From contig CACIZC010000008.1 in the NCBI GenBank assembly GCA_902591045.1, positions 1 to 51,252 of the forward strand: a stretch of 51,252 bases of DNA, in the 5' to 3' direction. A program made the position numbers and the translations under genes. Below the pieces are notes generated by a model. That model had not been told where the DNA came from. It was given only the letters and a program-made list of their open reading frames with translations, and did no database searches. This stretch comes from an uncultured Pelagibacteraceae bacterium. Lineage in GTDB: Bacteria > Pseudomonadota > Alphaproteobacteria > Pelagibacterales > Pelagibacteraceae. Shown here one piece after another: positions 4,930 through 10,388 of this stretch (position 1 is its first letter; the number at the start of each line of letters is the position of its first letter).

Positions 4930-6303
4930 TTAACCAACTTCCCTTGTATTTGCATTAAACGACTCAGTAAATGGTACTGGCACAACTACTGCTTCAACTG
5001 GCTTTGTAGAATACTTCTTTGGTAAATGAACTTTGTATTTTTTTCCAAATTTGCCTGTGGGAAAACCATTTTTATTTAAATCTCCTTCAAATGGAACATA
5101 GCCCATTGCAATATTTTTGCCTTTTTCAGGGTGGTACCATGGTGAAGTTATATAGCCGACTGGTTCTCCACCGCTTATATTTGAAATTAACCAAAAATCA
5201 TTTGCATAATCTTCTATTGGTTTTCCTCCTGACAACTCCAAACCAACAAGTTGAAGTTTGTATGGTTTTTCACCATTTTTGAGTTGTTTTTTCATTCTTT
5301 CTAAAGCTTCTTTTCCTACATAATTTGTTTGCTTATTCCATTCTCCTTTTCCAGATAGAGAGACTTGGTAACCTAAATTGCACTGAAACGGATTGCTCTC
5401 ATGATCCATATCTTGTCCCCAAGATAATATTCCAGCTTGAATTCTTCTGTGGTGAGCAGGTGCTATGACCATTAATTTATGTTTCTTCCCTGCTTTTAAT
5501 ACAGCATTCCACATGTCTTCTGCATACAAAGTTGCGTTTCGAAGATAAATTTCATAACCAGCTTCTCCGGAAAATCCTGATTGAGAAATAACACAGCTTC
5601 TACCACCTACTTTTGCTTCTGCTAAACCATAAAAAGGCATGTTATCTAAATCAACCTGATCTCCAATTAAATCTTTCATTAATGCTTTTGACTTAGGACC
5701 CTGAATTTGAACTGGACATGAATCTATCTCGTCTATTTCAACTTTAAATCTTTTATCAGAGTTAACGCCTTGTAAATATTTACCTATATCAGAGTCTGAT
5801 AAACTGAACCAAAACTCATCATCAGCTATTCTCATTAAAACTGGATCATTAAGAACTCCACCTTTGTAATTGCAAAGAATAACGTAACGGCCTCTCATTG
5901 TTGAAATTTTTGTAGCATCTCTTGTTATTACATAATCTGTAAATTTTTCTGCATCGGGCCCTTTAACACGAATTTGTCTTTCTACTGCTACATTCCACAT
6001 AGTTACGTGTTTTTTAATAGCTTGATATTCTACCATTGCACCACCTTTTTCAGGTCTAACGTAACCTCTTGGATGATAAATACGGTTATAAACTGTAGCT
6101 CTCCAGCATCCTGCTTTCATCGATAAATGCCAGTACGGTGATTTTCTTACTCTTGTCGAAATTAACATTTCTACTTTTGTTGGCCCACTTTGTCTTAAAT
6201 TGTAAGGAACTTGTCTGTCGGATTGATTTACTGACGTTTCGTGTCTTACTTTGTCGTAATTTACTTTTTCAACTTTGTACGAGTTAGGAACTTTTTTAGA
6301 CAT
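4930..6303 (-). CDS. DmdA/GcvT-family tetrahydrofolate-dependent demethylase
   Basis: The protein belongs to the GcvT/DmdA fold: it would move a methyl group from a methylated substrate to tetrahydrofolate. From memory of SAR11 DmdA, the stretches ISTRVRKSPY, TVYNRIYHP, MWNVAVERQIRVKGPDAEKF, NDPVLMRI, FSLSDSDIGKYLQG and QIQGPKSKALM line up with DmdA. It is 457 aa, about 90 longer than DmdA (about 370), and has an extra N-terminal segment of some 45 residues before ISTRV. It may therefore be a paralogue with a different substrate (another sulfonium, betaine or methoxy compound) instead of true DmdA. Its ATG overlaps the end of the MetF-like gene by 8 bp, so the two are coupled. Its stop lies 2 bp from the converging aminotransferase. 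Confidence 0.85.
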   Translation of the reverse strand: MSKKVPNSYKVEKVNYDKVRHETSVNQSDRQVPYNLRQSGPTKVEMLISTRVRKSPYWHLSMKAGCWRATVYNRIYHPRGYVRPEKGGAMVEYQAIKKHVTMWNVAVERQIRVKGPDAEKFTDYVITRDATKISTMRGRYVILCNYKGGVLNDPVLMRIADDEFWFSLSDSDIGKYLQGVNSDKRFKVEIDEIDSCPVQIQGPKSKALMKDLIGDQVDLDNMPFYGLAEAKVGGRSCVISQSGFSGEAGYEIYLRNATLYAEDMWNAVLKAGKKHKLMVIAPAHHRRIQAGILSWGQDMDHESNPFQCNLGYQVSLSGKGEWNKQTNYVGKEALERMKKQLKNGEKPYKLQLVGLELSGGKPIEDYANDFWLISNISGGEPVGYITSPWYHPEKGKNIAMGYVPFEGDLNKNGFPTGKFGKKYKVHLPKKYSTKPVEAVVVPVPFTESFNANTREVG

Positions 6304-7000
6304 AATTATTTTTTACTAACCACTTGTTTGTTTCTTTTAATCCACCAAATGTATATATGTGAAAATTTTCAGTAGACCCTTTAAGTTTGCTAATTAAATC
6401 ATTTGGATCTGACGGTTTTAACAAATCGAATGCTTTGCTTGCATTTGATTTAAGAAAATTAATTGAATTTTTTGCTCCTACAATATTTGCAAATTTTATC
6501 AAACTACTTATTTTTAGAGGACCTGTTATTCCTACGTGAACAGGCAAACTTTGTTTAGATATAAATTTAGCTATAGAGTCGGAATTTAAAAGCCACTGAG
6601 TAACAATGTAATCGGCAAAAGGTTTCTTATCGGTCATGGCTTTTTGTAAATCTGAATTCGATATATCAGGGGACCCCTCCGGATGTCCAGCAATTCCTAT
6701 CTTGAACCCCTTGAATAATCCTGTCTCTAACAACTGCAACGAACAGTGGTAGTCCCCGATAGGTTGGGAGCTCCCCCCGATAACAAGAGCTTGTTTTACG
6801 CCAAAATCTTTGCACATAGATACGTAATCCCTCAGGTCGTTTAAGTTTTTAATTGATCGTGCAGGAAAGTGAGGTACTGGATTAAACCCGGACTGGACTA
6901 GTTCTTTTGCTTTATTAGCCACATCTCTAAAATCATTCCCAGGCAACATAGTTATATAAACATCTTTCACTTTGGGTAATACGGAAAGATCTGTTTTCAT
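6296..7000 (-). CDS. Short MetF-like methylenetetrahydrofolate reductase family protein
   Basis: The translation resembles the TIM barrel of 5,10-methylene-THF reductase: ITMLPGNDFRDV, FNPVPHFPARSI, ALVIGGSSQPIGDY and IGIAGHPEGSPD correspond to the family's strand blocks, and QWLLNSD fits the F-Q-F-F region. At about 234 aa it is shorter than MetF (about 290). I prefer the ATG at 7000 over the one at 7024 because AGAG sits six bases upstream of it and the 7024 start would directly touch a leader hairpin. Overlap with the downstream DmdA-like gene suggests a shared job: the demethylase yields methyl-THF, and this enzyme would oxidise it to methylene-THF. Direction and cofactor are inferred. 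Confidence 0.8.
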   Translation of the reverse strand: MKTDLSVLPKVKDVYITMLPGNDFRDVANKAKELVQSGFNPVPHFPARSIKNLNDLRDYVSMCKDFGVKQALVIGGSSQPIGDYHCSLQLLETGLFKGFKIGIAGHPEGSPDISNSDLQKAMTDKKPFADYIVTQWLLNSDSIAKFISKQSLPVHVGITGPLKISSLIKFANIVGAKNSINFLKSNASKAFDLLKPSDPNDLISKLKGSTENFHIYTFGGLKETNKWLVKNNYV

Positions 7001-7024
7001 TGTTATCTCTAAGGAAAAATGCAT

Positions 7025-7078: not shown

Positions 7079-7153
7079 TGGTGGCCTTGGTTTGAATCGC
7101 ACAAACGACACATACCTTTTCAGGGTACTGCTCTACTACTGAGCTACAAGGCC
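7079..7153 (-). tRNA. tRNA-Phe (GAA) with a non-canonical elbow
   Basis: It folds as a cloverleaf: 7 bp acceptor (GGCCTTG/CAAGGCC), D-stem GCTC/GAGC, anticodon stem GTACC/GGTAT with loop CTGAAAA (anticodon GAA), 5 nt variable loop, T-stem GTTTG/CAAAC, discriminator A and an encoded CCA. Phe identity features such as U20, U45, U59, U60 and A73 are kept. The D-loop is AGTAGTA, lacking the G18G19 pair. The T-loop is TGCGATT, so the usual GTTC is GTGC and position 55 is G. The Thr and Ser tRNAs in this window are canonical at these positions. It could be a functional variant, a specialised tRNA or a decaying copy. Confidence 0.88.
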
Positions 7154-7161
7154 AAAATCGG

Positions 7162-7377
7162 CTAAAATCTAAAAGTAATTCTGCCTTTAGTCAAATCATA
7201 TGGTGTCATTTCAACTAAAACTTGATCGCCCGCTAAAACTCTTATTCTATTCTTTCTTAGTTTTCCAGCAGTATGGGCTAAAATTTCGTGGTCGTTCTCA
7301 AGCTTAACTCTAAACATCGCGTTAGGTAATAATTCGGTGACTTTTCCCTTGAATTCGATTTTTTCCTGTTTTGCCAA
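7162..7377 (-). CDS. infA: Translation initiation factor IF-1
   Basis: IF-1 is a single S1/OB-fold protein that occupies the ribosomal A site during initiation. The 71 aa translation has the family length and landmarks: [42 protein letters not shown] and the C-terminal TKGRITFRF. It lies 4 bp after hisD on the same strand and 8 bp before the tRNA-Phe, so all may be carried on one transcript. Confidence 0.98.
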
Positions 7378-7381
7378 TTTG

Positions 7382-8680
7382 TTAACCTTTTTTCATTCTT
7401 ATTTTTACTGAATTAGCGTGACCATGTAAATTTTCATATTTTGATAAATTTATAACCGATGAGCCGAGTCTTTCAATACCTGATTTACTAATTTTTATTA
7501 TAGACTGTCTTTTTATAAAGTCATAAACCGATAAACCTGAGGAAAACTTAGCTGTTCCAGAGGTGGGTAAAACGTGATTAGGACCTGCCAAGTAATCTCC
7601 CATTGCTTCTGGGGAATACCCGCCTAAAAAAATAGAGCCAGCATTATTTATTGAGTTTAAAAAGATATTAGGTTTTTTTGTGTATATTTCAAGGTGTTCA
7701 GGGGATATTTGATTTACAATATTAACTATTTCTCGATTGTTTTTTGCTAAAATCAAAATTCCATTTTTATTAAAACTTTTTTGAACAATTTTCTTTTTTG
7801 GTAAGCTTTTTAATTGTTTAAAAATAAGTTTTTTAACTTTTATAACTAGCTTATCATTGTTAGTAACTAATATTGATTGAGCCATTTCATCATGTTCTGC
7901 TTGTGCTATCAGATCAGCTGATATCCATTCAGGATTAGAATATTTATCTGCAATTATTGTAATTTCAGATGGACCTGCAAATATATCAATCCCAACCTGA
8001 CCGAAAACTTCTTTTTTTGCTAATGAGACATACTCATTTCCAGGACCAATAATTTTGTCAACTTTTTTAATTGTTTTTGTCCCATAAGCAAATGCTGCTA
8101 TAGCTTGAGCTCCTCCTATCTTATATATTTTTTTAACTTTGCACTTTGTGGCGGCATATAAAACTCCAGCATTAATTTTATTGTTTAAAGAAGGTACGGT
8201 CATATAAATTTCATTTACACCCGCAATTATTGCTGGAATACAGTTCATTAATACTGAACTTGGATAGCTAGCTTTACCACCGGGTACATAAATTCCAATT
8301 TTATCTATAGGCCTTGATCTATAGAATAATTTATTTTTGAATTTGTCTGTTATTTGAAAAGTTTTTATTTTTTGGTTTTTATGAAAATTTGAAATTCTTT
8401 GATATGCAATATCAATTGCTTTTTTTATTTTTGGATTAAGTTGTTTTGTAAAATATTTTATTTCGCTTTTAGAAAAAGTTAAATTTTTATTTTTTAATTT
8501 TTTTATATTATTGAATGTTTTTTCATATTTAATTAAAGATTTATCACCATTTTTTCTTATATTATTTATAATTTTTCTTACAAAAGATATTTTGGCTTCT
8601 GAAATATTATTTCTTTGGCTCAAAAGAATATTTAGTTCTCTTTCAAAATTTTTTGAGTTTGTTCTTAAAATTTTAATCAT
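7382..8680 (-). CDS. hisD: Histidinol dehydrogenase
   Basis: HisD carries out the last two steps of histidine synthesis, oxidising L-histidinol to histidine with two NAD+. The 432 aa length is normal. Recognisable blocks are [52 protein letters not shown], the metal and substrate region [24 protein letters not shown], and near the C-terminus ISPEHLEI and [26 protein letters not shown]-type residues ([19 protein letters not shown] is visible). Its start overlaps the DUF2948 gene by 8 bp. The murA-DUF2948-hisD order is typical of Alphaproteobacteria. Confidence 0.97.
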
Positions 8681-9125: not shown

Positions 9126-10388
9126 TTAATGGAGTCTAGAAATAGCCGCTTTGCAATTTTTTAATTTTTTTTCAAGAAACTCATATCCTCTGTCCAAGTG
9201 ATAAACTCTATTTACAGTAGTTTTATTTTTTGCGACTAAGCCTGCCAATACTAAACTAACCGAAGCTCTAAGGTCTGTTGCCATTACTTCTGCTCCATTA
9301 AGATTTGATGAACCTGTTATTTTTGCAACATTGTCTAAAATATTAATTTTTGCACCCATTCTAATTAATTCAGGAACATGCATGAATCTATTTTCAAAAA
9401 TATTTTCTTTAATTGTTGATATCCCATTTGCTTTTGTCATTAAAACCATAATCTGTGCTTGTAAATCTGTTGGAAAACCAGGGTAAGGTGCTGTTGTTAT
9501 AGAAATAGGTTTTATTTTTCTAGATTTTAATATTTTAATTTCTTTACTTTTAATTTCTAACTTTACACCCATTTTTTTTAAAACTTGTAACTCCTTTTTT
9601 AAAACTTTAGTTTCTATTCCAGATATTACTATTTTTGTTCCGATAAGAGCACCTGCAATTATGAAGGTGCCTGTTTCAATTCTGTCAAACATTATTTTAT
9701 AATTTGCAGATTTTAATTTTTTGGTTCCTTCAATTTTTATTTTTCTCTTTCCAACCCAGTTAATATTCACATTCATTTTTTTTAAAAAATTAATTAGGTC
9801 TTGTATTTCAGGTTCCGTAGCACAATTACTTATGTAAGATACTCCGTCAGCATAACTCGCTGCTATAATGGCATTTTCAGTAGCTCCAACTGATATGGAT
9901 GGAAATTTAATTTTTGCTCCTCTAAGACCATTTTTAGCTTTGGCTAATATATATCCATTCTTAATTTTAATATTGGCCCCTAGTTTTTTTAAAGCCAAAA
10001 GATGCAAATTTACTGGTCTCGTTCCAATAGCGCAACCACCTGGTAAAGAAACTTTTGCTTTTTTGAATTTTGATAATAATGGTCCCAGAACTATTACGCC
10101 TGCCCTCATAGTTTTTAACAACTTATAAGGAGCTAAAGTTCTAAATTTTTTTTTTTTATTATTTATTACGATTTTTTTTCTTTTATAGTTAATTTTAATA
10201 TTTGAACCAATATATTTTAAAAGTTCTACCATTGTGATCACATCTTTTACAAGTGGAGTGTTGCTAATTTCAATTTTTTGATTATTTAAAATAGAAGCTG
10301 CTAAAATTGGAAGTGTTGCATTTTTAGATCCAGATATTTTTATATTTCCAGATAAATTTCTTTTTCCTTTAATTATTAGTTTTTGCAT
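9126..10388 (-). CDS. murA: UDP-N-acetylglucosamine 1-carboxyvinyltransferase
   Basis: MurA makes the first committed peptidoglycan precursor by adding enolpyruvate from PEP to UDP-GlcNAc. The 420 aa protein starts with KGKRNLSGNIKISGSKNATLPILAAS and carries the catalytic loop LPGGCAIGTRPVNLH, whose Cys is the residue targeted by fosfomycin (some bacteria carry Asp there; this one does not). PYPGFPTDLQAQ and the C-terminal ATDLRASVSLVLAG and IDRGYE-type (LDRGYEFLEKK) blocks are also present. It heads a run with DUF2948 and hisD and begins 4 bp after dcd. Confidence 0.97.
   Translation of the reverse strand: MQKLIIKGKRNLSGNIKISGSKNATLPILAASILNNQKIEISNTPLVKDVITMVELLKYIGSNIKINYKRKKIVINNKKKKFRTLAPYKLLKTMRAGVIVLGPLLSKFKKAKVSLPGGCAIGTRPVNLHLLALKKLGANIKIKNGYILAKAKNGLRGAKIKFPSISVGATENAIIAASYADGVSYISNCATEPEIQDLINFLKKMNVNINWVGKRKIKIEGTKKLKSANYKIMFDRIETGTFIIAGALIGTKIVISGIETKVLKKELQVLKKMGVKLEIKSKEIKILKSRKIKPISITTAPYPGFPTDLQAQIMVLMTKANGISTIKENIFENRFMHVPELIRMGAKINILDNVAKITGSSNLNGAEVMATDLRASVSLVLAGLVAKNKTTVNRVYHLDRGYEFLEKKLKNCKAAISRLH

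Follow-up and report, generated by a model that had tools for sequence, protein, structure and literature searches.

A coupled A18/G55 replacement at the elbow of a SAR11 tRNA-Phe

In tRNAs of known structure, residue 18 lies between residues 57 and 58 and, as G18, bonds to pseudouridine 55 (psi55), and the G19-C56 pair forms an exposed face that RNase P, the L1 stalk, and L5 make use of (PMC4810234). In bacteria, psi55 is the product of TruB, whose substrate sequence is GUUYRANYC; enzymes other than TruB that make psi55 occur outside the bacteria (PMC7912444). Natural departures from this arrangement include metazoan mitochondrial tRNAs, which have lost the elbow (PMC4810234), and the staphylococcal non-proteinogenic tRNA-Gly, which carry UU or CU at positions 18-19 together with altered T-stem pairs 49-65 and 51-63, and which exist beside normal copies (PMC4052509). 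Here we analyzed a tRNA-Phe gene of an uncultured SAR11 bacterium, contained in a stretch of 51,252 nucleotides (the window, meaning the whole of that stretch). SAR11 is among the most abundant bacterial groups in the ocean. Like the mitochondrial tRNAs, this tRNA-Phe departs from the universal D-loop/T-loop contact, but its elbow is retained through a substitute pair whose two bases change together. Artificial suppressor tRNAs with altered D- and T-loops were reportedly selected in the Steinberg laboratory and are said to show that other combinations of the two loops can support translation; those are laboratory products, whereas the SAR11 tRNA-Phe is a fixed natural tRNA. A literature search, with subscription journals outside its reach, returned no description of A18-G55, and the paper on SAR11 tRNA signatures (PMC3937112) does not mention the elbow, the D-loop, or the T-loop. 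Our main reading, to which we give a probability of roughly 0.8, is that this is an ordinary translational tRNA-Phe whose 18-55 contact has switched to a pseudouridine-independent A-G pair, a change made tolerable or useful through the loss of TruB.

The gene lies on the minus strand at positions 7079 to 7153 and encodes a tRNA-Phe(GAA) of 75 nt including an encoded CCA (7081-7079); its full minus-strand sequence is GGCCTTGTAGCTCAGTAGTAGAGCAGTACCCTGAAAAGGTATGTGTCGTTTGTGCGATTCAAACCAAGGCCACCA. The coordinates proposed from the letters alone for a tRNA-Phe with an altered elbow proved exact, with ARAGORN recovering the gene, and the Infernal-type scoring proposed at that time gives 65.2 bits against the Rfam tRNA model (RF00005), above its threshold. 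In the D-loop (7134-7140), which aligned to the Rfam model reads A14 G15 U16 A18 G19 U20 A21 (7 nt), A18 is base 7137 and G19 is base 7136; in the T-loop (7095-7101), which reads U54 G55 C56 G57 A58 U59 U60, G55 is base 7100 and C56 is base 7099. Positions 18 and 55 are thus both changed, G18 to A and U55 to G, as the sequence-only reading had noticed. Its description of the D-loop as lacking G18G19 stands for G18 only: both G19 and the C56 with which it forms a Watson-Crick pair remain, and the change is confined to the 18-55 pair. The bacterial Phe determinants U20, G44, U45, U59, GAA, and A73 (PMC9976931) are all present, the anticodon GAA at 7119-7121, so that the earlier impression of intact identity elements was correct; the same source also lists a C10-G25 pair, where this tRNA has G10-C25, as in most tRNAs. 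All 21 of the 21 stem pairs (100%) are kept in each of its nine main sequence types, with changes on both sides at 10 pairs, which rules out a tRNA pseudogene. In its cloverleaf, identity elements, encoded CCA, G19-C56 pair, locus, and single-copy role, the molecule resembles a canonical bacterial tRNA-Phe(GAA). It differs in that the conserved G18-psi55 contact, a feature typical of tRNA-Phe but not required for the assignment, is replaced by A18/G55, and in that there is neither a TruB site in the tRNA nor a TruB found in the genome. Judged by its sequence, it is a variant rather than a standard member of bacterial elongator tRNA-Phe.

Directly upstream, on the same strand, the gene is adjoined by infA, encoding translation initiation factor IF-1 (7162-7377; TTG start; Pfam PF01176, E 7e-27), and further upstream, also on the minus strand, lie hisD (histidinol dehydrogenase, named from sequence and known gene order; 7382-8680) and a murA-like gene (9126-10388). 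The order murA-YHCP-hisD-infA-tRNA-Phe is conserved, with tRNA-Phe directly downstream of infA, and hisD and murA were used for the tree. On the other side, between tRNA-Phe and a hisC-like gene, the minus strand at 4930-7024 encodes two proteins, one with a GCV_T domain (Pfam PF01571, DmdA/GcvT-like) and one of 242 aa that has no Pfam match and appears MetF-like by eye; relatives have other genes in this place. A tRNA-His, found 150-1100 bp from tRNA-Phe in SAR11 loci, varies far more between relatives than tRNA-Phe does. Four genomes carry, 1.2-2 kb downstream, a 3' fragment of the tRNA-Phe of that same locus, 38-59 nt long and 100% identical (L068:3436-3494 in G113, L069:3490-3527 in G164, L676:3884-3930 in G389, and L681:5649-5693 in G007). 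The fragments flank variable genes, among which there is no recognizable integrase, and they resemble attachment sites left behind by small insertions at tRNA-Phe. The same att-like pattern occurs in the window's own genome, with a 3' fragment of the initiator tRNA-Met (G000:C3:66297-66353; L016, L029) ~1.2 kb from the intact gene.

The 75 bases of the tRNA-Phe are identical over their whole length in 19 genomes (the window's own and 18 further ones). Two more genomes match over 73-74 bases, and ~55 match at 95%, the differences being compensatory T-stem changes where they were read. A scan of ~85,000 named genomes yielded at least 120 loci of the A18/G55 type, and among the matches listed (80) all belong to SAR11, as Pelagibacteraceae, Pelagibacterales, or Candidatus Pelagibacter. 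Across the order, 113 of 397 genomes carry a canonical tRNA-Phe. They account for the greater part of the sister family f2 and for part of g3, and genera g2, g4, g5, g7, g8, and g9 are all represented among them; within the 397 genomes, no canonical copy was found in g1, the genus of the window, or in g6. According to the sequence-only reading, canonical orthologs at the same locus would suggest a sequencing error or a decaying copy. Such orthologs exist, in the 113 genomes just mentioned, but they form separate lineages on the tree, and whole genera are fixed for the variant; therefore, neither error nor decay accounts for it. On the tree of hisD and murA, three changes of elbow type are needed in 84 rows, and five (bootstrap range 5-6) in a set with more canonical rows; a single A18/G55 clade is rejected (p = 7e-60). 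With polarity taken from f2 as outgroup, the tree reads as one or two gains of A18/G55 and about three returns to G18/U55, although some of the switches could be accounted for by recombination between lineages. At each switch, positions 18 and 55 changed together and, in most cases, D-loop length changed too.

The same coupling is seen in other SAR11 tRNAs. Among 179 distinct SAR11 tRNAs, a set in which the manner of retrieval favored Phe, A18/G55 is carried by 17 (tRNA-Phe, three kinds of tRNA-His, one tRNA-Val, and one tRNA-Thr), and neither of the mixed combinations, A18/U55 or G18/G55, occurs. Three tRNAs have the swap in the complete genome G003: Phe, Val(GAC), and His, the last two also with A54/U58 instead of U54/A58. 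The tRNA-His (L730, G003:C1:205065-205135) was missed by ARAGORN, scores 50.6 bits with Rfam, and was read by eye. In the complete genome G001, the swap is found in tRNA-His only, and tRNA-Phe is canonical. Using the restricted pattern TAGCTCA...RGT...GTGC, which covers one D-arm type and places tRNAs with other D-arms outside the count, we found real A18/G55 tRNAs in SAR11 only among 385 alphaproteobacterial genomes, and in the window's own only among 229 genomes of the phylum; the 385 genomes also gave one tRNA-Pro-like G18/G55 match (G629). Other elbow changes were observed in SAR11 tRNA-Thr(GGT). One form (L115, L190, L693, L698) has the D-loop TAGTGTTA and the T-loop UUAGAUU, with U19-A56 replacing G19-C56; another (L095, L104, L107, L109, and others) has the T-loop GUCAGUA, where G54 and G58 replace the U54-A58 reverse-Hoogsteen pair and G18/U55 is kept.

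Phage tRNAs show the coupling on a larger scale. Phage contigs were fetched from IMG/VR with patterns for A18/G55, G18/G55, and A18/U55; to limit selection bias, the tRNAs that had matched a pattern were left out of the count, and positions 18-19 were assigned without regard to the T-loop. The nonredundant count is 604 G18/U55, 76 A18/G55, 6 A18/U55, and 0 G18/G55, in 20 isotypes and 31 contigs; because the contigs are interrelated and one in three had been picked for an A18/G55 tRNA that it carries, the frequency of A18/G55 is inflated, the coupling much less so (Fisher p = 1e-94, ignoring the relatedness of contigs). Of 15 tRNAs in these contigs without C56, 13 have a Watson-Crick partner at position 19 (A19-U56, U19-A56, or C19-G56; viral loci L263-L622), and the assignment of positions thus recovers the known tertiary pair. 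A frequent viral A18/U55 class that appeared in an earlier count was discarded: most of its D-loops are GG with an inserted AG (e.g., AGTGGAGTA) and do not have a true A18. Going by this covariation, the putative A18-G55 pair is a second solution to the elbow contact that is found in nature. We would give even odds to the broader proposal that this pseudouridine-independent solution evolved many times, in phage tRNAs and in SAR11, and that in SAR11 it became established in the essential tRNA-Phe after the loss of TruB.

The psi55 synthase gene, truB, is absent from the SAR11 clade holding every A18/G55 tRNA-Phe, by a clean deletion between rbfA and rpsO. The search covered 155 genomes of the order, made up of the window's own and others that are at least 90% complete, with a control that was positive in 14 of 14 known genomes. 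Pfam TruB_N was found in 21 of the 155, all in f2, g2, g4, and g5, and was absent from the other 134, including g1, g3, g6, and one genome each of g7 and g288. Within infB-rbfA-truB-rpsO-pnp, the operon to which it belongs, truB is present in g2 and g8 and is cleanly cut out in the sampled genomes of g1, g3, g6, g7, g9, and g288. The T-loop of the tRNA-Phe at 7079-7153 does not fit the TruB substrate sequence (PMC7912444). The truB-less g7 and g9 have canonical tRNA-Phe; therefore, truB was lost before the switch or without it. Several truB-less g3 lineages kept or regained G18/U55 in tRNA-Phe, and the truB-bearing g2 has an A18/G55 tRNA-His. The loss of truB is thus neither sufficient nor strictly necessary for the swap, and most other tRNAs in truB-less genomes keep G18/U55. 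Since the loss is a single event on the tree, and given the tRNA-His of g2, we can only infer that it favored the switch.

We suggest the following course of events. The switch would have arisen in SAR11 within the truB-less clade, the contact that locks the D-loop to the T-loop passing from G18 with pseudouridine 55 to A18 with G55. Once the pseudouridine is gone, less would be at stake in the G18-U55 contact, and a pair of two purines, which requires no modification, could replace it. A18 presumably remains inserted between bases 57 and 58, with hydrogen bonds to G55, a geometry that we infer from covariation. Only the buried 18-55 pair is replaced and the outer G19-C56 pair is kept; the exposed face would therefore be preserved, and tRNA-Phe would show its partners the same outer surface.

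The most serious alternative is a horizontal replacement, in which the tRNA-Phe came from phage or through recombination between SAR11 lineages at the locus, the elbow being a passenger. Phage tRNAs do have the same D- and T-loop, identical tRNA-Phe is found in genomes with hisD only ~50% identical to that of the window, and the tRNA-Phe fragments 1-2 kb downstream in four genomes resemble attachment sites. However, the central part GAGCAGAGCCCTGAAAAGGCTTGTGTCG is the same in the canonical and in one A18/G55 type of SAR11 tRNA-Phe, which favors a change in place. Among phages, nothing close to this tRNA came up: a SAR11-like tRNA-Phe pattern matched no contig in IMG/VR, and the named phages gave only distant matches. 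The coupling of 18 and 55 across isotypes would also be left unexplained. We regard this origin as unlikely, at something like one chance in five. Less probable again is that the swap was an adaptation that shields the tRNA from a nuclease or modification enzyme of host or phage that targets tRNAs, with the loss of TruB coincidental to genome streamlining. The frequency of A18/G55 in phage tRNAs and the one A18/G55 tRNA in the TruB-bearing g2 would agree with such an adaptation, but we know of no nuclease specific for the 18-55 pair.

The copy number speaks to the role of the molecule. ARAGORN finds one tRNA-Phe in the window's own genome (963 kb in 28 contigs, 82% complete), where all other tRNAs read with a complete cloverleaf have GG and UUC. 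The complete relative G003 also has one, of the A18/G55 type, and a second, canonical tRNA-Phe was found in neither genome. As the sole copy, the A18/G55 tRNA-Phe must decode all UUU/UUC codons, in agreement with the suggestion of the sequence-only reading that it could be the organism's only, tolerated, tRNA-Phe. The companion suggestion, that it is charged yet acts outside normal translation, finds no support: the tRNA is the sole tRNA-Phe, with G19 and C56 kept, and we reject such a role. The tRNA-Phe at 7079-7153 is very probably the cell's normal, essential elongator, with charging and use of EF-Tu predicted from its sequence. We consider it highly improbable that charged tRNA-Phe is diverted to peptidoglycan, lipid, or N-end aminoacylation in the manner of the staphylococcal non-proteinogenic tRNA-Gly. 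The likeness to these tRNAs, which had been pointed out at the start, consists in the loss of G18, with GG broken up, and in the GUGC T-loop that the sequence-only reading ascribes to them. The staphylococcal tRNAs, however, carry UU or CU at 18-19, and their T-stem pairs, altered at 49-65 and 51-63, are weak ones for EF-Tu (PMC4052509), where this tRNA-Phe keeps G19-C56; they coexist with normal tRNA-Gly, whereas the SAR11 tRNA-Phe has no canonical isoacceptor in its own genome or in G003; and the same elbow is found in phage tRNAs of many isotypes. That the gene is a decaying or mis-assembled copy, as the canonical tRNA-Phe at the same locus in relatives might suggest, is more improbable still, given the 18 further genomes with the identical tRNA, the occurrence of this type at 120 or more loci of named genomes, the compensatory stem changes among types, and the fixation in whole genera.

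A practical consequence of an A18/G55 elbow is that consensus-based tRNA finders can miss tRNAs that carry it, as ARAGORN did with the tRNA-His of G003. With a natural coupled replacement in an essential tRNA, and TruB lost in the same lineage, two questions are open to direct test: which chemistry the 18-55 contact requires, and what purpose psi55 serves.
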